Assembly (NCBI RefSeq): GCF_018069625.1 | Contig: NZ_CP072941.1 | Coordinates: 10,230,001 to 10,294,000 of the forward strand | Direction of reading: 5' to 3' | From: Streptomyces yatensis | Lineage (GTDB): Bacteria; Actinomycetota; Actinomycetes; Streptomycetales; Streptomycetaceae | Length of the DNA stretch: 64,000 nt | In this document: positions 6,973-52,721 of the stretch, one piece after another | Layout of the letters: each line of letters starts with the position of its first letter | Position numbering within the stretch: position 1 is the stretch's first letter | Translations under genes and position numbers: made by a program | The notes under the pieces: model-generated | What the model saw: the letters and a program-made list of their open reading frames with translations, nothing else | Database searches by the model: none | What the model was told of the DNA's origin: nothing

Positions 6973-7455
6973 ATGGCTGACGAAACCGCACCCTCGACGT
7001 CCGCGACGCCCCGGCCACCCGCCGCGCTGACGACCGCGCCCGGATACCAGGTCCGGCGCCTGTACCAGGCATACCTCGCCGTCTGGATCAGGGCGGTCGA
7101 CCCGCTCCTGACCGGGCCGCAGTTCGCGGTACTCCAGGTTGTGGACGCGAGCCCGGGGCACGACCAGCGATCGCTGGCGTCAGCGGTCGCCCTCGATACG
7201 TCGACCATGACGGACGTCGCCCGCCGGCTGGAGAAGCGCGGCCTGATCGTCCGCAGAACGGCCGCCGACGACGGCCGGCGCAAACTGCTCTATCTGACCG
7301 AGGAAGGCAAACACACCCTCGACGACGCGAACCGCCGCGCCCGACTGCTCGACGAACAACTCCTGGAGCCGTACGGACCACAGCAGCGCGACGACATCAC
7401 ACATCTGCTCGCATCCCTCGCCGACCACTGGGAGCAACTGACCGAGGACGGGTGA
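6973..7455 (+). CDS. MarR-family regulator of the nicotinate-type operon
   Basis: 160-residue winged-helix repressor. The core DNA-binding region (about residues 55-115) has MarR signatures: QRSLASAVALDTSTMTDVAR recognition helix area and the wing KRGLIVRRTAADDGRRKL. It sits inside the catabolic operon between the deformylase-like and maleate isomerase genes, the place where NicR (a MarR protein controlling nicotinate degradation in Pseudomonas) would be expected, so it likely senses a pathway intermediate. The 76-bp gap upstream, with CTTAAG at 6959-6964, could hold its own promoter and operator. Confidence 0.85.
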   Translation: MADETAPSTSATPRPPAALTTAPGYQVRRLYQAYLAVWIRAVDPLLTGPQFAVLQVVDASPGHDQRSLASAVALDTSTMTDVARRLEKRGLIVRRTAADDGRRKLLYLTEEGKHTLDDANRRARLLDEQLLEPYGPQQRDDITHLLASLADHWEQLTEDG

Positions 7456-7535
7456 ACCGCCGTGGCACGGCAGGCCACGGGAACGGGCCCGCGGGTCGTC
7501 GGCGAGTCCCGTACACCGGACAACCGGAGGATTCC

Positions 7536-8315
7536 GTGACCGATCACCACGTCGGCCTGATCGTGCCCAGCTCGAACCTCACCATGGAAACGGAGTTGCC
7601 CCGGATCCTGCGGCTGCGCGAGTCGGCGGTCCCCGAGGACCGGTTCGTGTTCCACAGCAGCCGGATGCGCATGCGGCAGGTGACCCCCGAGCAGCTGCGC
7701 GCCATGAACGCGCAGACCGAGCGAGCCGCGCTGGAACTCGCCGACGCACGCCCGGACGTCGTCGCCACGGCCTGTCTCGTCGCGATCATGGCCCAGGGCG
7801 CGGGGTACCACTGCACGGCGGAGGACGAGATCACCACCGTGCTGCGAGCCCAGGGCGCCCAGGCACCCGTGGTGTCCAGCGCCGGTGCCCTTCTCGACGG
7901 CATCAAGGCACTCGGGGCCAAGCGGGTCGCGATCATCACGCCGTATATGAAGCCGCTCACCGGGTTGGTCGCGAACTACATCGAGGACGCGGACATCGAG
8001 GTCGTGGACGCGCTGAGCCTGGAGGTACCGGACAATCTCGCCGTCGCCCGGCTGGACCCGGCGGATCTCCTCGACCACTGGCGGCGCCTGGACCTGTCAC
8101 GTGCCGACGCGCTCGTACTGTCGGCATGCGTCCAGATGCCGTCACTGCCGTCGATCCAGCCGGCCGAGGACGCGATCGGCCTGCCCGTCCTGTCCGCGGC
8201 CACCGCCACGGCGTACCGCATCCTCGCCGAACTCGGCCTGCCCCCGCAGGTGCCGGGCGCCGGCAGCCTCCTCGGCGGCCGCCTCCCCGTCCCCGCCCGG
8301 AGCGCCCCGGAATAG
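7536..8315 (+). CDS. nicE: Maleate isomerase (Asp/Glu racemase superfamily)
   Basis: 259 residues, the usual length for maleate cis-trans isomerase (about 250). Begins VTDHHVGLIVPSSNLTMETE, with GTG placed six bases after GGAGG. Two catalytic cysteines expected in the family are present: ATACLVAIM (about residue 75) and LVLSACVQMPS (about residue 195). The enzyme converts maleate to fumarate, feeding the TCA cycle, the last step of nicotinate breakdown. Arylmalonate decarboxylase-like relatives are the main alternative, but context favours maleate isomerase. Confidence 0.85.
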   Translation: MTDHHVGLIVPSSNLTMETELPRILRLRESAVPEDRFVFHSSRMRMRQVTPEQLRAMNAQTERAALELADARPDVVATACLVAIMAQGAGYHCTAEDEITTVLRAQGAQAPVVSSAGALLDGIKALGAKRVAIITPYMKPLTGLVANYIEDADIEVVDALSLEVPDNLAVARLDPADLLDHWRRLDLSRADALVLSACVQMPSLPSIQPAEDAIGLPVLSAATATAYRILAELGLPPQVPGAGSLLGGRLPVPARSAPE

Positions 8316-44310: not shown

Positions 44311-45483
44311 TCACGGTGCGTCGTGACCGGCCCCTGTCTGTGGCTCCTGGTCGATGCCTGGCCAGCGGACAAGGCGGAAGAACCCACGCACCTGTTCGAC
44401 CAGCGACTCCGGCTGCTCCAGCGCGGCGAAATGGCCGCCTCGCGGTAGTTCCTCGAACCAGCGCAGGTCGGTGAACCGCAGTTCGGCCTCCCGCCGGGAC
44501 GGGCGGGTGATGTCGCGGGGGTAGATCGACAGCCCGGACGGCGCGGTGACCTTGTCCCGGAAGTGGGCGAAGCTTTCCCAGTACAGGCGCGCGGACGAGG
44601 TGGCCGAGGCGGTGAACCAGTAGACCGAGATTTCGTCGAGGATCTTCTGCCGCGAGACCGCGTCCTCGTGGTTGCCGTCGTGGTCCGTCCAGGCCTGAAA
44701 CTTCTCGGCGATCCAGGCAGCCTGGCCGGCCGGGGAGTCGGTGAGGCCGTAGCCGAGCGTCTGCGGCCGGGTCGCCTGCTGCCCCGAGTACCCCCGGCCG
44801 GTGCGCTGGAACTCCTTCTCAGCCTCGAGGTTCGCTCGTTCAGTTGGCGTCGGGTCGTCGAACGTGCCCAGCGCCACGGAGCCCATGTTCAGGTGCACGC
44901 CGACGACCCGCTCGGGCGCCACCTCGCCGAGCGCGCCGGACACCGCCGAACCCCAGTCACCGCCCTGCGCGCCGTAACGCTCGTAACCCAGCGACACCAT
45001 CAACGTGTCCCAGGCGCGCGCGATGCGCGTGACACCCCACCCGGTCCTCGTCGGCTTGTCGCTCCAGCCGTACCCGGGCAACGACGGCGCGACCACGTGG
45101 AATGCGTCCGCCGGGTCCCCGCCGTGTGCGCGTGGGTCGGTCAGTGGTCCGAGGACACCCAGGAACTCGAGCACCGAACCCGGCCAGCCGTGCGTGAGCA
45201 CCAGCGGGAACGCGTCCGGTTCCGGGGAGCGGACGTGCAGGAAGTGGATGCCCAGCCCGTCGATGGTGTCGCGGTACTGCGGGAAAACGTTCAGCCGCTC
45301 GGCGAACCCGAAGTCGTAGTCCTCGGCCCAGCTGCGGCACAGCTCCTGTGCATAGGCCAGCGGCAACCCTTGTGACCAGTCGTCCACCGGCTCGAGCTCG
45401 GGCCACCGCGTTCGTCGCAACCGTTCACGCAGATCCGCGATCTCGGCTTCGGTGATGCTGACCTCAAATGGCTCGGCGGTCAC
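44311..45483 (-). CDS. Epoxide hydrolase (EHN-domain alpha/beta hydrolase)
   Basis: 390 residues with the N-terminal EHN helical cap (PFEVSITEAEIADLRERLRR) followed by the alpha/beta hydrolase core. Oxyanion HGWPGSVLEF, nucleophile Asp in YGAQGGDWGSAVS and catalytic His in PRGGHFAALEQP, as in microsomal-type epoxide hydrolases. GTG start at 45483 overlaps the upstream MFS stop by 20 bp, so translation is coupled. The pair transporter plus epoxide hydrolase suggests detoxification/export of a xenobiotic, under the divergent CGNR regulator. Confidence 0.92.
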   Translation of the reverse strand: MTAEPFEVSITEAEIADLRERLRRTRWPELEPVDDWSQGLPLAYAQELCRSWAEDYDFGFAERLNVFPQYRDTIDGLGIHFLHVRSPEPDAFPLVLTHGWPGSVLEFLGVLGPLTDPRAHGGDPADAFHVVAPSLPGYGWSDKPTRTGWGVTRIARAWDTLMVSLGYERYGAQGGDWGSAVSGALGEVAPERVVGVHLNMGSVALGTFDDPTPTERANLEAEKEFQRTGRGYSGQQATRPQTLGYGLTDSPAGQAAWIAEKFQAWTDHDGNHEDAVSRQKILDEISVYWFTASATSSARLYWESFAHFRDKVTAPSGLSIYPRDITRPSRREAELRFTDLRWFEELPRGGHFAALEQPESLVEQVRGFFRLVRWPGIDQEPQTGAGHDAP

Positions 45484-46942
45484 AGCTGGCTCCTGTTCTG
45501 TCAGGTTTGCCGGGGTGAAAGGTGACGGGTCGAGAGTTGACGGTGTCGTGAGGTTCCGGTGGATGCCGGGCGCCGGGGCGTCGGGTCACGCTGAGGACGA
45601 GTCCGGCCAGAGGGAGGACCGCGAGCACGGCGAGGGCTACCGGCACCGACACGATGCCGGACAGGCCCGCGACAGCGGCCGGACCGATCCCGCCACCCAG
45701 GTTGATCATGAAGGTGAGCAGGCCCTGTGCGGTGTCGCGGTCGTGTGCGGTGACCAGTTCCGGTGCAAGGCCCACGAGCACGGTCTGGACGCCGGCGAAC
45801 CCGCTCACGGTCAGCGCCACACCGACGATGACCGCGGTCGGCCCGGTGAACACCCCGACCACGAGCACGCCGATGACGGTGAGTGCCGCAAGCCCGGCCG
45901 ACACCTGCCACGCGGTGAACCGTGCGGTCACGGTGCCGGCCAGCCGCCCTGCCAGCACCGAGCAGGCGGCGGCCGGGACCAGCAGCGCGCCGGCTTCGAG
46001 GGCGCCACCGCCCGTAGCCTGCTCGATCAGGGACGGGGCGAGGAACAGCACCCCGTAGTAGCCGGCGAAGACCGCCCCACCGACGAGCCCGGCAGCCGGG
46101 ACGCCGCGGGCCGCGATCACCCGCCGAGGCACGAACCCGTCGGGCCTGCGCCGCACGCGCCACCACAGTCCCACCCCGGCGAGTACCCCGGCGGCGGCCA
46201 CGACGAGCGTGACCGCAGCGGGCAGTCCGACCGAATGCGCCTGCAACACCGTGATCAGCGACCCGGCGAGTACCGAGAGCACGGCCGCGCCGCCGACGTC
46301 GAGTCGCCCGGCCGAGCCGTCCCGCTCACCGCCGCCGATCCGCGTGAACGTACGCCTGTCCGCCAACGCGGCCAGCAGGAGGGGCAGTGCGAGGACCGGG
46401 ATCGCGAGCACGGCACGCCACCCCAGCCACGCGGTAACCGCCCCGCCCACCAGGGTCCCGCACGCCGACGCCGTCGCGCTGGCGGCTGCGACCGTTCCCA
46501 ACGCGCGCAGCCGTTGCTGCCCGGGAAGGGCGGTGGCCTCAGCGAAGACGGCGATCACGGTCGCACCCGCCCCGGCGCCACCGATCAGTCGGCCGATGAT
46601 CACGACCGGCAACGTCGGGCCGGCCGCCGCGAGCGCGGAGCCCGCGGTGAGTGCTAGAACCCCGGCGACGAGGACCCGCACGGGGCTCCACCGGGCCATC
46701 AGCCGACCGGCGACCGGCATCGCCAGTGCCGAGGTCAGCGACCATGCGGCGAGGATCCATGCCGTGGTCCCGAACGGCACTCCGAGCGCGCGGCCGATCG
46801 CCGGCAGCGCCACCGACGGGGCGCCCAATGCGACGTACATCGGCAGCACCAGCATCCCCAGGGTCAGTCCCAGCCGGCGCCCGTCCGGGGCGTGGGTGGG
46901 TCCCCCGCCCAGACGCCCTCCCGACCGGATCGTCTGCGGCAT
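45464..46942 (-). CDS. MFS drug-efflux transporter
   Basis: 492 residues, about 14 hydrophobic segments, DHA2-like. Motif region VAGRLMARWSPVRVLVAG (loop after TM2) and GGAGAGATVIAVFAEATALP (motif C-like glycine-rich helix). Start at ATG 46942, preceded by GGTGGAG; the GTG 46972 alternative adds ten residues and lies on the operator. C-terminal tail overlaps the epoxide hydrolase start. Probably exports the epoxide or its diol (inference). Confidence 0.88.
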   Translation of the reverse strand: MPQTIRSGGRLGGGPTHAPDGRRLGLTLGMLVLPMYVALGAPSVALPAIGRALGVPFGTTAWILAAWSLTSALAMPVAGRLMARWSPVRVLVAGVLALTAGSALAAAGPTLPVVIIGRLIGGAGAGATVIAVFAEATALPGQQRLRALGTVAAASATASACGTLVGGAVTAWLGWRAVLAIPVLALPLLLAALADRRTFTRIGGGERDGSAGRLDVGGAAVLSVLAGSLITVLQAHSVGLPAAVTLVVAAAGVLAGVGLWWRVRRRPDGFVPRRVIAARGVPAAGLVGGAVFAGYYGVLFLAPSLIEQATGGGALEAGALLVPAAACSVLAGRLAGTVTARFTAWQVSAGLAALTVIGVLVVGVFTGPTAVIVGVALTVSGFAGVQTVLVGLAPELVTAHDRDTAQGLLTFMINLGGGIGPAAVAGLSGIVSVPVALAVLAVLPLAGLVLSVTRRPGARHPPEPHDTVNSRPVTFHPGKPDRTGASCDRRAI

Positions 46943-46965
46943 CGTCGTCTCCACCCAGGTATGTT

Positions 46966-46995
46966 GTGACACGTGAAAGCTAATACGGGTGTCAC
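46966..46995 (+). promoter_or_regulatory. CGNR operator candidate
   Basis: GTGACAC (46966-46972) and its inverted copy GTGTCAC (46989-46995), 16 bp apart, in the 80-bp region between divergent mfs and cgnr genes. Confidence 0.6.
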
Positions 46996-47022
46996 GCTAC
47001 GAACGGTGAGGAGACACGTCAA

Positions 47023-47619
47023 ATGCTAGATGCGTGTTACATCTCATCGGCGGTGGAGGCGGCCGTCGATCTCGCCAATACCTGGAGGCCGGTCAAGGGC
47101 GAGGACGCGCTGGAGACTGTGGAACAGCTCCAGGACTTCTTCGCCGACCATCCGCCTGCCGGACCGGGCGAGCCGTCGAGCTCGGCCACGGACCGGGGGC
47201 CCGGTCCCTGGCGGCGTCTCACCCGCGCCGACCTGACGGAGGTCCGCGCACTGCGCGAGACGGTGCGCGGCGTGCTCGAACGGTCCCGCACCGACGCGGT
47301 CGCAGCCGCGGCCCTGATCAACGACGGTCTGCGCCGCAGTCGCGCCACTCCGGTGCTGCGCCACGATCACGACCGCTGGTGGACCGAGGTCACCGCCGAC
47401 ACCGACCGCTGCGCGGCGCACCTGGCCGCGACCACGCTCAGCGCGCTGGCTTGCGTGATCGCCACGCTCGGTCCGACTCGTCTCGGCGTATGTGCCGGGC
47501 CCAAGTGCCGGGCCACCTACGTGGACCTCTCACGCAACGGCTCAAAGCAGTACTGCACCCGAACCTGCGCGCACCGTGCCAGCGTCGCGGCCTACCGCAG
47601 TCGGCACAGCAACAGCTGA
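47023..47619 (+). CDS. CGNR zinc-finger (ABATE domain) regulator
   Basis: 198 residues. N-terminal ABATE domain (AVDLANTWRPVKGEDALETV) and C-terminal CGNR zinc finger LGVCAGPKCRATYVDLSRNG, then KQYCTRTCAHRASVAAYRSR with four cysteine ligands. ATG 47023 after GTGAGGAG. Divergent from the MFS/epoxide hydrolase operon with an inverted repeat between, mirroring the CGNR/MBL pair at 18 kb. Likely a ligand-responsive repressor. Confidence 0.88.
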   Translation: MLDACYISSAVEAAVDLANTWRPVKGEDALETVEQLQDFFADHPPAGPGEPSSSATDRGPGPWRRLTRADLTEVRALRETVRGVLERSRTDAVAAAALINDGLRRSRATPVLRHDHDRWWTEVTADTDRCAAHLAATTLSALACVIATLGPTRLGVCAGPKCRATYVDLSRNGSKQYCTRTCAHRASVAAYRSRHSNS

Positions 47620-48287: not shown

Positions 48288-48626
48288 TCAACGCCGTTTG
48301 CGGCTGGTGTCACGGTTCTCACCGGCACCCCGAGTTGGGCTCTGGCTCCTCGGTATACCACCAGGATGGCGGCTCCGCGTCGAAGAACGGCCGCCCAAAC
48401 GGCGAAAGCGACACAGCCAGACGGCTGGCCGAACAGATGCGCACCCATGCGAAGGTCCGGTAGATCAGCGGCGGCAGTAGCTCCTCGGCCGCACCGCAGC
48501 CGAGTGCGGTCCGGGGATTTCCACCGGACCTCCGGCACCGTTGCCCTCGGTCGACGACTGGCGAACCGACACCTCGGACACCCGGCACGCACAGCACTTC
48601 GAGCGCAGCCCTGCCGCACTCTGCCA

Positions 48627-48668
48627 CTGTCGGCAGACGATGGCGAGCTCAAGCGGTCAGCGCATCAC
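48627..48668 (+). repeat. IS30 left terminal inverted repeat
   Basis: Matches the right end at about 36 of 44 positions, allowing a one-base gap after GATGGCGA. Confidence 0.8.
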
Positions 48669-49301
48669 CGCTGTTCAGGAGGTCAGCGTAGACCTCTGCC
48701 GGAGTGCGGTACCCGTGGGTCTTGCGCGGGCGATGGTTGAGCTCGTGGGCGGCGGCGTCCAGGTCGGCCTGGCTGTACGTGCGGAGGTCCGCGCTCTTGG
48801 GCAGGTACTGCCGAAGCAGTCGGTTGGTGTTCTCGTTGGTGCCGCGCTGCCACGGGCTGCGCGGCTTGCAGAGGTAGATCGGCATCCCGGTCCCGGCGGT
48901 GATGGCCTGGTGCTCGGCCATCTCCTGGCCCCGGTCCCAGGTGAGCGTTCGTCGTAGCTGGGGCGGGATGCCGAGGAGACTCCTGGTGAGGTGCGGAGTG
49001 ACCTGCTCAGCCTTGATGCCGTCCGGCAGCGCGACGATGGCCGTGTAGCGGCTGGTGCGCTCGACGAGCGTGGCGACCGCAGAGGGCCGGGTGCCCATCA
49101 CGAGGTCGCCCTCCCAGTGGCCCGGGAACGTTCCGGTCCTCGACCTCGTGGGGCGGGCGGTGATGGACACCATGCCGCGGATGATGCCCCGCCCGGTGGG
49201 CCGGCGGGCGATCTTCGGATAGCGCATGGGCCTGCCTTGCCGCAGCCGCTGGGTGAGGCTGCCGTCGATCGCCTGACGTCGGCGAGGGTCGTAGAGCGGG
49301 A

Positions 49302-49307
49302 GGTAGA
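49302..49307 (+). repeat. Target-site duplication, left copy
   Basis: GGTAGA, repeated at 52074-52079. The match is AGGTAGAT (8 bp) if the outer T/A of the element ends is counted. Confidence 0.8.
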
Positions 49308-49332
49308 TGTATTGTCCACGAGCCTTGTTGAC
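49308..49332 (+). repeat. IS481-type left terminal repeat
   Basis: TGTATTGTCC...TTGTTGAC; pairs with the inverted right end at 52049-52073. Confidence 0.7.
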
Positions 49333-49439
49333 AGTGAGGACGGTACGTAGGGCACCGACGAAGTGTGCTGGCCAGGGCCCACGCGGGCGCGGAGGCACGA
49401 GTGGTGGTGGCTCGGGCGTCGTAGTGAGGCCACGACAGT

Positions 49440-49474
49440 TACATGGAATCTCCAATGATTGGAAGTTCCATGTA
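49440..49474 (+). promoter_or_regulatory. 35-bp MarR operator palindrome
   Basis: Centred at 49457. Outer arms TACATGGAA / TTCCATGTA and inner arms TCCAAT / ATTGGA pair at 15 of 17 positions. It lies 11 bp before the marR start and is AT-rich, so an autoregulatory operator over the promoter. Confidence 0.85.
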
Positions 49475-49485
49475 TTGTTGAGCGC

Positions 49486-49962
49486 ATGGATGACGCACAG
49501 CTGAACGAAGAACTGATCGACTGCCTGTTTGCGATCCGCACTAAGGTCCATAGCGAGCTGAAGGAGCTGGCCCGCGAAGCGGGGCTCACCGACACCCAGA
49601 CCGACGTGCTGTGGAGGCTGAGTCGCGGGGACGAGATGACCGCGCGCCGCCTGTCCGACCTCCTGCAGTGCGATGCCTCAACCGCCACGTCGATGATCGA
49701 CCGGCTTGAGAAGCGCGGGCTGGTCCGCCGAGTGCCCCACCCCACCGACCGCCGCGCGAAAGTCATCCAGCTCACCCCAGAGGGATGTGCACTGCGCGAC
49801 CGCGTCATCGAGCACACCACCCGGCACTCGCCCTTCGCCCGCCTCGACCACGAGAGCAGACTGCGCCTACATTCGCTGCTCCGCGAGGTGAACGACGATG
49901 CCCGGCCAGCAGGCGAGCCCACTCCCGGCAAGAACAACCACGACAAGGAACAACAGCAATGA
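49486..49962 (+). CDS. MarR-family regulator, transposon passenger
   Basis: 158 residues. Winged helix: ELKELAREAGLTDTQTDVLW, DLLQCDASTATSMIDRLEKR (recognition helix) and GLVRRVPHPTDRRAKVIQLT (wing). The C-terminal tail is charged and low-complexity. Start ATG 49486 (MDDAQLNEELIDC) directly after the 35-bp palindrome; ribosome site weak. Its stop overlaps the SDR start (ATGA). Encoded within the IS481-type element, so it travels with it. Confidence 0.92.
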   Translation: MDDAQLNEELIDCLFAIRTKVHSELKELAREAGLTDTQTDVLWRLSRGDEMTARRLSDLLQCDASTATSMIDRLEKRGLVRRVPHPTDRRAKVIQLTPEGCALRDRVIEHTTRHSPFARLDHESRLRLHSLLREVNDDARPAGEPTPGKNNHDKEQQQ

Positions 49963-50837
49963 GCAGCGCGACCACAGTCGTCACTGGCGGTGCGTCCGGC
50001 CTGGGGCTGGTGACCGCACGTCACCTGGTCAAAGCCGGGCAGAGCGTCATCCTCGTCGGCCGGGACGCGGCCCGCACCCAGGCCGCCGCCAACCACTTGC
50101 GCACCCTCGCCCCCGCAGGAGATGACGCGCCTGCGCTGCGGACGTACGCGGCCGATCTGGGGCAGTGGTCGCAGGCGCGCGACCTCGCGATGAAACTGGC
50201 GGCCGATGCCGTCTCGGTGAACGTGCTCATCAACAACGCGGGCGCGGCCTTTCCCCGTTATGAACAGACCGTTGACGGGGTCGAGCGCACCTACGCGATC
50301 AACCACCACGCACCCTTCCTGCTCACCCACGCTCTGCTCGCGGAGGGCGCTCTCGCCTCGGAGGCGCGGGTCATCAACCTGTCCACCTTCGTGGAGAAGC
50401 GCGGCAGGCTCGACGCCACGGACCCCGATGTTGCGGGGACGTCGTGGAACAGCCGCTTCTACAACCAGATCAATGTCTACGCGACCAGCAAACTCCTCAG
50501 CCTCCTGGCCACCCGCGAGCTCGCCCGACGCCTGCCCGACGGCATGAGCATCTACAACGCCAATCCCGGCATGGTGAAGGGCACCGCGATCAACAGCAAC
50601 GCCGGCGGTCTGATGCGGCTGACAGCCCCGCTCTTCCGCCCCTTCGCCATCACCCCCGACGAAGGCGTGCAAACCCCCGTCTGGCTCGCCACCACCTCCC
50701 CGGCCCCGCAGCCCAGCGGCGGCTTCTTCAGCCGGTCCCAGCCGGACACCCCTTCCCCCCTCGCCCAGGACGACGCCCTCGCGCGCATCGTCTACGACAA
50801 GACAGCCGCCCTCCTGGGCCTCGCCCCCACGGCATAA
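49959..50837 (+). CDS. SDR-family oxidoreductase, transposon passenger
   Basis: 292-residue short-chain dehydrogenase of the retinol dehydrogenase/protochlorophyllide reductase-like group. TVVTGGASGLGLVTARHLVK cofactor motif, NNAG in VLINNAGAAFPRY, INLSTFVEKRG with Ser, and YATSKLLSLLATRELARRL (YxxxK). Co-translated with the upstream marR through ATGA. Intact, while the adjoining transposase is broken, which suggests selection for the gene pair. Substrate unknown. Confidence 0.92.
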   Translation: MSSATTVVTGGASGLGLVTARHLVKAGQSVILVGRDAARTQAAANHLRTLAPAGDDAPALRTYAADLGQWSQARDLAMKLAADAVSVNVLINNAGAAFPRYEQTVDGVERTYAINHHAPFLLTHALLAEGALASEARVINLSTFVEKRGRLDATDPDVAGTSWNSRFYNQINVYATSKLLSLLATRELARRLPDGMSIYNANPGMVKGTAINSNAGGLMRLTAPLFRPFAITPDEGVQTPVWLATTSPAPQPSGGFFSRSQPDTPSPLAQDDALARIVYDKTAALLGLAPTA

Positions 50838-51097
50838 GCGCGTCGGACACCAGAGGCCCCGTTCCGGCGGCAGCCGAACGGTCACCGCACGCCTCGACGC
50901 CGATCCGCAGCACCTGACGCTGCCCGACGGGCAGATGGTGAAGTCCGCCGACGCTCCCACCGCCGAACTGCTCGCCGCCCAGCGGGCCAGTAAAGCGCCC
51001 TCGGTGACCGTGACTACCGCCCCGGCCCCACCTCACCCGGGTGGGCTGGGGCGTCTGCTACCGAACGCCCACGACCCACGACGTCCATGAGGTCCCT

Positions 51098-52078
51098 GTG
51101 CCCCACTCCAGCGCGCGACTGACTATCCACGGCAGACGGCTCCTGGTTGAACGCGTCCGAGCCGGAAGGCCCGTCGCCCACGTGGCCGACGAGATGGGCA
51201 TCTCCCGAACAACCGCCCACAAGTGGGTCCGGCGCTGGCGAGCTGAAGGCGACGGAGGGTTGTACGACCGCTCCAGCCGGCCCCTGATGACACCGCACCG
51301 CACCTCGGTCGACATCGAGAGCCACATCTGCAAGTTGCGGCGCGAGCGCAAGCTCGGTCCCGCACGCATCGGACCGATCTTGGACATGCCCGCCTCCACG
51401 GTCCATCGCGTCCTGACCCGCCACCAGCTGAACCGGCTGAGCTGGATAAACCGGCCTACCGGGCAAGTCATTCGGCGCTACGAGCGAGAGCGTCCTGGCG
51501 AACTGGTCCACGTCGACATCAAGAAGCTCGGCAAATCCCCGACGGCGGCGGACATCGGCTCATGCCCCGCCAGCAGGCCGCCGGCATCCGCTGGCCACAA
51601 CCGACGCGCGCAAGAACGGCAGTCCCGTGATCGGCTACAGCTTCGTCCACACAGCCGTCGACGATCACTCCCTGCTCGCCTACAGCGAGGTCCTGTCGGA
51701 CGAGCGCAAGGAGACTGCGGCCTCCTTCTGGGGGCGAGCGAACGCCTTCTTCTCGCAGCACGGCATCACCGTCGAGCGTGTCCTCACCGACAACGGTTCC
51801 TGCTACCGATCCCGGCTGTTTGCCCAGACTCTCAGCGCCGCCAGCATCATCCATAAGCGCACGCGCCCCTGTCGCCCGCAGACGAACGGCAAGGTCGAGC
51901 GCCTGACCGCACCCTGCTCGACGAGTGGGCGTATGTGCGCCCGTACTCCAGCAACGCCGAACGCACCGAAGCCCTGGCGGACTTCCTCCACACCTACAAC
52001 TACCACCGATGCCATACCGCACTCGATGGTCAGCCGCCTATCAGTCGCGTCAACAACCCTGCGGGTCAAGACAGGTAG
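51098..52078 (+). pseudogene. IS481-family transposase with frameshifts
   Basis: GTG start; N-terminal HTH RAGRPVAHVADEMGISRTTA and RVLTRHQLNRLSWINRPTGQ in the first frame. After a shift near 51550 the DDE core continues with GYSFVHTAVDDHSLLAYSEV and RVLTDNGSCYRSRLFAQTL. A second shift near 51905 leads to the end, FLHTYNYHRCHTALDGQPPI and a TAG at 52076 in the target duplication. All catalytic regions are present, but not in one frame. Confidence 0.85.
52049..52073 (-). repeat. IS481-type right terminal repeat
   Basis: Read inward from 52073: TGTCTTGACC...GTTGTTGAC. Confidence 0.7.
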
Positions 52079-52079
52079 A
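52074..52079 (+). repeat. Target-site duplication, right copy
   Basis: GGTAGA, same as 49302-49307. Confidence 0.8.
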
Positions 52080-52606
52080 TCGCTTCATGCGAGATCTGCA
52101 TGGAGACGTCACCAGGAAACTGCCGTCGCAGCCATCCTGCGATCTGCTCGGGTGACCAGCACAGAGCCAGCTTGGTTTCCACCAGGGCGCGCAGAGGGGC
52201 CGTTGGGTGAGCTTGACCTGCTTGGGTCGGCGCCCGCGCGTGTAGGCGTCCGCATCGGCCGAGGCGGCTAGGTAGCGGTCCCGGCCGCCGTTGCGGGCGA
52301 CCTCGCGGGAGACGGTCGAAGGGGATCTGCCCAGCCGCTTGGCCAGCTGCCGGGCCGATTCCCCGGCGGCGATACCGCGGGATATCTTCTCGTGCTCGCT
52401 GCCGCTCAGACCGCTTGTGCGGGGTGAGGCGGACGCCGCCGCTCTGGTACAGGAAACGGCGGGCGTGCTGCATCGGTGCCCCGAGTGCCCGCCCGATCAA
52501 GCTGAACGACTGCCCCTCGCGCGAGCGTCTTCAGATCTGGTCCTGTTGAGCCGCTGAAAAACCGTAGTCACGCACCTGTGCCTCCACGATCACATGATCA
52601 TCCGCG

Positions 52607-52650
52607 GGTGGTGCGTTGATCACTTGAGGGTCGCCATCCTTTGCCGACAG
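52607..52650 (-). repeat. IS30 right terminal inverted repeat
   Basis: Inverted partner of 48627-48668. Confidence 0.8.
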
Positions 52651-52721
52651 GCAGCCGCGTGCGGCGGAATCGGCGGGGCGTCCGCCGGACTGCCGGGCAC
52701 CTCGCGCCGTGCTCAGGCCGT

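Follow-up and report, generated by a model that had tools for sequence, protein, structure and literature searches.

Within a 64,000-nucleotide stretch of Streptomyces yatensis DNA (the window; positions 10230001-10294000 of the 10.36-Mb single contig NZ_CP072941.1, near one contig end), a transposon of the IS481 family, with a MarR-family regulator gene (marR) and a short-chain dehydrogenase/reductase gene (SDR) between its left end and its transposase gene, has jumped into an insertion sequence of the IS30 family and duplicated 6 bp of it, a reading to which we give a probability of about 0.88. The boundaries of the insert, the duplication, the empty site in relatives and frameshifts in the window transposase gene can be read directly in the DNA, as can the same cargo element in a second genome (G216) and a sister cargo element present in genome G303 as two near-identical copies with separate duplications. 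An earlier note on this window had already claimed nested transposons, and this claim is confirmed and now better supported than its reader could know.

Boundaries, duplication and empty site

Two copies of GGTAGA, at 49302..49307 and 52074..52079, bracket an insert of 2,766 bp (49308-52073), and we verified both copies and the length as the earlier note gave them. The insert begins TGTATTGTCCACGAGCCTTGTTGACA and finishes TCAACAACCCTGCGGGTCAAGACA; its ends are of the inverted TGT...ACA type found in the IS481 family, and the common motif TTGTTGAC that had been noticed in them lies at an identical offset in both. On the two sides stand the halves of the IS30 element, both on the minus strand: 48627..49307 (681 bp) holds the 3′ part of its transposase gene and includes the left GGTAGA, and 52080..52650 (571 bp) holds the 5′ part and the other IS30 end. 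Together they make 1,252 bp, the length predicted after removal of the insert and one duplication.

Contiguous copies of the IS30 element were found at three loci in relatives, L159 (genome G055), L160 and L161, and comparison with such an empty site confirms the GGTAGA copies as a target-site duplication. In L159, where the left half is 96% identical, this half matches 2173-1495 and the right half with GGTAGA matches 1500-914, so that the two overlap by exactly 6 bp; the overlap is likewise 6 bp in L160, and L161 is consistent with 6 bp after extension of its shorter left match. Translated by eye, the junction region of L159 gives HEAIYLSLYDPRR, so the IS30 gene of the window was cut inside its EAIYL codons, as the earlier note had it. 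G055 has two copies of the IS30 left half, at 96 and 95% identity.

The host element belongs to the IS30 family by its transposase and its ends: the closest plasmid matches are annotated as IS30 family transposase, and paired IS30 ends are present when read by eye. Pfam gave no match on the one window IS30 piece that was searched, and no clear short repeat that could be the IS30 element's own target duplication was seen in its flanks (window 48607-48645 and 52633-52670).

Organization of the insert

The left end (49308..49333, plus strand) was defined by comparison with relatives, which have about 25-29 bp of it in common, and the right end (52050..52073, plus strand) by the same end comparison. 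All genes between them lie on the plus strand. The first cargo gene, marR (49486..49962), matches Pfam PF01047 at 1.1e-16, and the second, SDR (49959..50837; 292 aa), matches PF00106 at 1.6e-23 and the PDB relative 3rd5 at 1.9e-20; the two overlap by ATGA. A GC-rich, terminator-like hairpin (51012..51056, plus strand; 1 of 100 shuffles as stable) separates the cargo from the IS481 transposase gene (51098..52073). These Pfam matches, with the comparison to G216, bear out the earlier statement that the insert carries marR and SDR besides its transposase.

In the window the transposase gene is broken by frameshifts, with the Pfam domains LZ_Tnp_IS481 and rve on separate pieces, and the window copy is therefore probably dead; the homologue in G216 is unbroken. 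The transposase of a close relative, L032, scores 361.6 bits against the NCBIfam IS481-type transposase model NF033577, above its cut-off of 224. No further copies were found in the own genome among the candidates scored (best 40 of 246, best 5 of 46 at E 1e-100 and best 40 of 143). A composite transposon, with a full insertion sequence copy on each side, was ruled out, as only the left end of about 25-29 bp lies on the cargo side.

Both cargo reading frames are intact, and comparison of the window with G216 indicates purifying selection on each (MarR dN 0.034, dS 0.192; SDR dN 0.042, dS 0.193). The SDR contains TGGASGLG, NNAG and YATSK, which we take to be the motifs of its family. No NCBIfam model reached its cut-off among the 14 listed for MarR or the best 25 of 155 listed for SDR. 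Ahead of marR lies a 37-bp palindrome (49439..49475), a probable MarR operator, in which 11 to 15 of 18 positions are complementary across the operons compared. Since it is kept at the same place in all 5 homologous operons, the marR-SDR operon probably regulates itself. MarR would repress the operon through this palindrome until a small molecule releases the repression, and the SDR might then reduce a carbonyl or quinone-like compound. The transposase, for its part, would act on the TGT...ACA ends and move everything between them.

Cargo elements in other genomes

When the insert was used as query, 150 of 199 relatives searched gave some match, and among the matches listed the long ones outside the own genome took in the right 984 bp or else the marR-SDR part, and none had the two together. 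With the S. triticagri relative's transposase as query, the named genomes yielded many loci, of which the best 79 were compared, ends being recognized with up to 7-8 mismatches allowed. Both ends were recognized in 56 of these loci: 49 are cargo-less and measure 0.93-1.09 kb, and the other 7 are longer. The ends of the insert match those of cargo-less relatives of roughly 1.05-1.09 kb, whose duplications are NCTAGN. Of the 56 loci, 45 are flanked by a perfect 6-bp direct repeat, and in 44 of those 45 it has the form NCTAGN, the duplication of this group within the IS481 family; such agreement of ends and duplications is more than chance. Of the 23 loci without a recognized left end, L079 is cut by a contig end and the others are 60-63% identical, a distance at which the left-end pattern may fail.

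Cargo goes with the closest transposases. All 6 two-ended loci whose transposase is at least 86% identical to the query carry cargo, and of the other 50 only L044 is long (2,528 bp). It was rejected as a cargo element, since its extra DNA encodes what appears by eye to be another transposase, and its row lies among the cargo-less ones in the quick transposase tree described below. This locus (L044:6452-8979) has a transposase of the cargo-less type, with an apparent second insertion sequence, IS701-like by eye, in its leader region.

A search of 392 genomes of the genus, with at most 5 candidates scored per genome, added complete cargo elements in G303 (two copies), G456, G216 and G200, and incomplete ones in G465 (left end not found) and G438 (right end lost). 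The G216 element has marR-SDR between the same ends, is 90.8% identical to the window over 2,669 aligned columns and has an unbroken transposase frame. No match to the window IS30 was found within the 13 kb fetched around it. Since G216 holds both genes between the same ends and away from the IS30, marR-SDR is cargo and not flanking DNA. Other copies show that the element has its ends at the places given in the earlier note. The marR-SDR pair also stands without these ends in all 3 other places examined.

Sequence evidence that such elements may move as a unit comes from two further genomes. G303 has two 2,454-bp cargo copies that differ by 2 bp and are flanked by ACTAGA and CCTAGC, so the cargo element probably moved whole; in S. 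triticagri a cargo element of 5,117 bp has GCTAGG on each side. The window itself shows only its own duplication and the copy in G216.

All 12 complete elements of this group have a single transposase with passenger genes between both ends, as in cargo-bearing IS481 elements. By Pfam assignment of cargo content there are nine cargo sets among 13 distinct elements; every set includes a regulator, and most include an oxidoreductase or hydrolase. The window and G216 carry MarR and SDR; S. triticagri TetR, an MFS efflux protein and an FAD monooxygenase; S. melanogenes an MmyB-type regulator and an alpha/beta hydrolase, to which S. cyaneochromogenes adds an NmrA-like protein; AC558 MarR and an amidohydrolase; S. 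cellostaticus TetR and an NmrA-like protein, with the same set by homology in G465; S. tendae TetR and a zinc alcohol dehydrogenase, with an IS110 inside; G303 HxlR and a metallo-hydrolase; G456 and G438 TetR and a saccharopine-dehydrogenase-like enzyme, with a zinc dehydrogenase in addition in G438; and G200 thioredoxin, MFS, an FAD oxidoreductase, XRE-cupin and a SnoaL-like protein. The saccharopine-dehydrogenase-like enzymes of G456 and G438 are 49% identical, with a Pfam match in G438 only. In an all-against-all comparison, likeness between sets was at family level only (TetR 37-40%, partial; MFS 28%; NmrA 26-28%; zinc dehydrogenase 28%), the exception being a gene relic in the window that is treated below. 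Among the 11 distinct complete elements the regulator faces away from the enzyme in 8, and in the window, G216 and G200 it is oriented as the transposase.

Some of these elements have features of their own. In S. cyaneochromogenes (L035:7267-12942) another IS481 transposase gene, truncated on its 5′ side, adjoins the cargo element's left end and faces the other way, and consequently two right ends flank one left end. In S. triticagri the MFS pump (L039:5302-6798) passes the EmrB-type efflux model (247 over 230), and the FAD monooxygenase (L039:6827-7987) resembles the Tet(X) model at 183 of 750 bits, far below the cut-off. The largest cargo element, 7.7 kb in G200 (L154:3249-10987), includes thioredoxin, an efflux pump and a flavoprotein, and a frame at 7048-8313 looks methyltransferase-like by eye only.

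Transposase phylogeny and cargo turnover

The transposase DNA of cargo elements forms one clade in a quick tree (12 of 62 rows; SH-aLRT 100) and again in a careful tree, in which 13 cargo rows stand together with support of 100/100 beside 46 cargo-less rows (59 in total) and are recovered in all 200 bootstrap trees. The careful tree omits four cargo-less rows on long branches (L082, L091, L100 and L102); the quick tree includes them and gives the same single clade. Sister rows mostly share their cargo, as in the pairs window/G216, S. melanogenes/S. cyaneochromogenes and S. cellostaticus/G465. The row of G438, whose transposase is cut and contributes only 630 bp to the careful tree, is sister to S. 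triticagri (100/99), yet its cargo is of the same type as that of G456, whose transposase groups with that of G200 (97/86). Either cargo was exchanged, or the G456-type cargo goes back to an early stage of the clade and several members have since replaced it; under both readings the mismatch between tree and cargo means cargo turnover. From the tree and the anatomy together, it appears that one IS481 branch exchanged a short leader and its hairpin for a regulator-plus-enzyme cassette, and that the cassettes of this branch may since have been replaced several times.

The window itself may keep a trace of such turnover. Beside the SDR lies a 52-codon relic (50875..51030, plus strand) of a saccharopine-dehydrogenase-like enzyme, homologues of which are intact cargo in G456 and G438. 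It corresponds to residues 198-249 of the G456 enzyme (73% identical; E 6e-20, with three short sequences as the searched set); it is 51% identical to the enzyme of G438, and G216 retains a decayed version (59% over 34 residues). The relic may be a remnant of an earlier cargo. A chromosomal gene of S. triticagri speaks against this, for at 69% identity it is nearly as close to the relic as the G456 cargo is; thus the relic by itself is not proof of an earlier cargo. It could instead have travelled with the marR-SDR operon from a chromosome and be uninformative on earlier cargo, an account that the chromosomal homologue favours and that we consider a serious if somewhat less probable one: around the three marR-SDR operons that stand outside such elements, no relic-type gene was found in the 6-8 kb to either side, and the two elements with the homologous enzyme as intact cargo have transposases in different subclades.

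Leader hairpin and a probable insulating hairpin

In cargo-less elements about 100 bp separate the left end from the transposase start, and this leader folds into a hairpin (GAAGACCTCCG...CGGAGGTCTTC) in which the likely ribosome-binding site is paired, so that the hairpin appears to sequester the transposase start. We aligned 34 of 38 distinct leaders, omitting L082, L083, L091 and L102, in which the stretch is misplaced or truncated. In this alignment 97.4% of the cells pair, and sliding the partner lowers this share to 33-59%; both sides have changed in 8 cells, and none of the 500 shuffles reaches the covariation score. On folding, two cargo-less leaders gave z values of -3.9 and -5.8. Three points count against this evidence from covariation: double changes occur in only 2 of 19 pairs, which 50 of 500 shuffles equal; pair types are no more numerous than in the shuffles, all 500 of which have at least as many; and a DNA palindrome would likewise covary.

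The left arm of this hairpin was not recognizable in any of the 12 complete cargo elements, where the best match has 2-4 mismatches of 9. Five cargo leaders, including that of the window, gave z values of +0.4 to +1.4, and the value of -2.5 in G216 is due to another hairpin that lies upstream. All 9 distinct complete elements with a gap between cargo and transposase have a stable hairpin in that gap, mostly without an obvious T run (0-3 of 100 shuffles as stable). In most members it probably insulates the transposase from cargo transcription, and we infer that insulation by this hairpin replaced leader sequestration in the cargo elements.

At first we supposed that transcription of the cargo operon runs on into the transposase gene, and that whatever the cargo regulator senses would thereby trigger jumping as well. 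This would suit the absence of a recognizable start-sequestering hairpin in cargo elements, the orientation of the gene adjoining the transposase, which is co-oriented with it in 11 of 11 distinct complete elements, and the arrangement in S. triticagri and G456, where the transposase begins 10 bp past the cargo stop codon. We now consider it unlikely because of the unusually stable hairpins in all the gapped elements, the window included.

Points against the transposon reading

Several observations weigh against a cargo transposon that moved as a unit into the IS30. The GGTAGA duplication has the expected 6 bp and is one base off NCTAGN. A perfect 6-bp repeat flanks only 4 of the 12 complete cargo elements (the window, S. 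triticagri and both G303 copies); 4 are one base off (L040, L041, L054 and G200) and 4 have no repeat (L056, L087, G456 and G216). The first 100-135 bp or so inside the left end differ between the window and G216, and cargo-less members of the cargo clade may exist beyond the best candidates scored. It is nevertheless very improbable that a cargo-less IS481 element entered the IS30 first and that marR-SDR joined its leader later, separately and without ever moving with the element: the cargo-less form is the commoner one among relatives (49 of 56 two-ended loci) and marR-SDR occurs on its own elsewhere, but the same cargo between the same ends in G216 largely refutes this order of events, another cargo element stands twice in G303 with a duplication of its own at each copy, and the window transposase falls within a clade whose every found member has cargo.

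Outside the nested elements, the genes near the IS30 (window 44311-47619) are an epoxide-hydrolase-like gene, an MFS transporter and an ABATE/CGNR-zinc-finger regulator.

Relation to known elements

Cargo-bearing IS481 transposons with NCTAGN-type duplications are described in two published reports (PMC6794481, PMC6305408), so this kind of element is already known. TnRErm46/ISRe46 of Rhodococcus equi resembles the insert in having one IS481-family transposase at the right end and cargo with a TetR regulator between the left end and the transposase, and resembles this lineage in its 6-bp NCTAGN duplications; it differs in size (6.9 kb), in carrying erm(46) and transport genes, and in its end sequence TGTTGCGGGTCATGACGTTG (PMC6794481). 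Its left end also provides the stop codon of the outermost cargo gene, as in G303 (PMC6794481). In G303 the stop codon of the HxlR-holding frame lies inside the left end (L148:8638-8670). ISArsp12/ISPfr21 is an IS481 element of 2.6 kb in which genes for an ArsR regulator and a permease precede the transposase; its duplication is CCTAGA, and unlike the insert it has a different cargo and the ends TGTACTGACCGGACACGTTG (PMC6305408; record NZ_MH067968.1). For Tn5564, the entries in PMC8304765 list IS5564 as IS481 family and tie it to Tn5564 and cmx; IS1513 (IS30) is also listed in it, so that it is not a clean single-element case. ISLxc2 of Leifsonia is given in PMC2516522 as an IS481-family element of 1,105 bp with NCTAGN, like the cargo-less relatives here, in another genus and with different ends. 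The transposases of ISArsp12 and those adjoining erm(46) on plasmids are about 48% identical to that of L032, and the IS5564 transposase about 51%. Tn4811 of Streptomyces lividans is likewise a Streptomyces transposon with oxidoreductase-like genes. Among the titles and abstract openings listed from the open-licence literature, we found no description of a Streptomyces IS481 cargo lineage or of the leader hairpin of such elements.

Insertion sequences are mostly regarded as carrying a transposase alone. In the present case a single branch of transposases goes with nine different sets of regulator plus enzyme, spread over 13 distinct elements. Tentatively, and at somewhat less than even odds, we propose that this IS481 branch is a cassette platform, in which a silencing leader hairpin was replaced by an insulated, self-regulated unit of regulator, operator, enzyme and terminator that has been exchanged repeatedly while ends and transposase were kept, and through which Streptomyces may share stress or detoxification modules. 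If this is true, it would be a simple route for the spread of regulated metabolic modules in Streptomyces, and it would raise the question of how an element with one transposase exchanges a cargo that is bounded by a 25-bp end on one side and by the transposase gene on the other.

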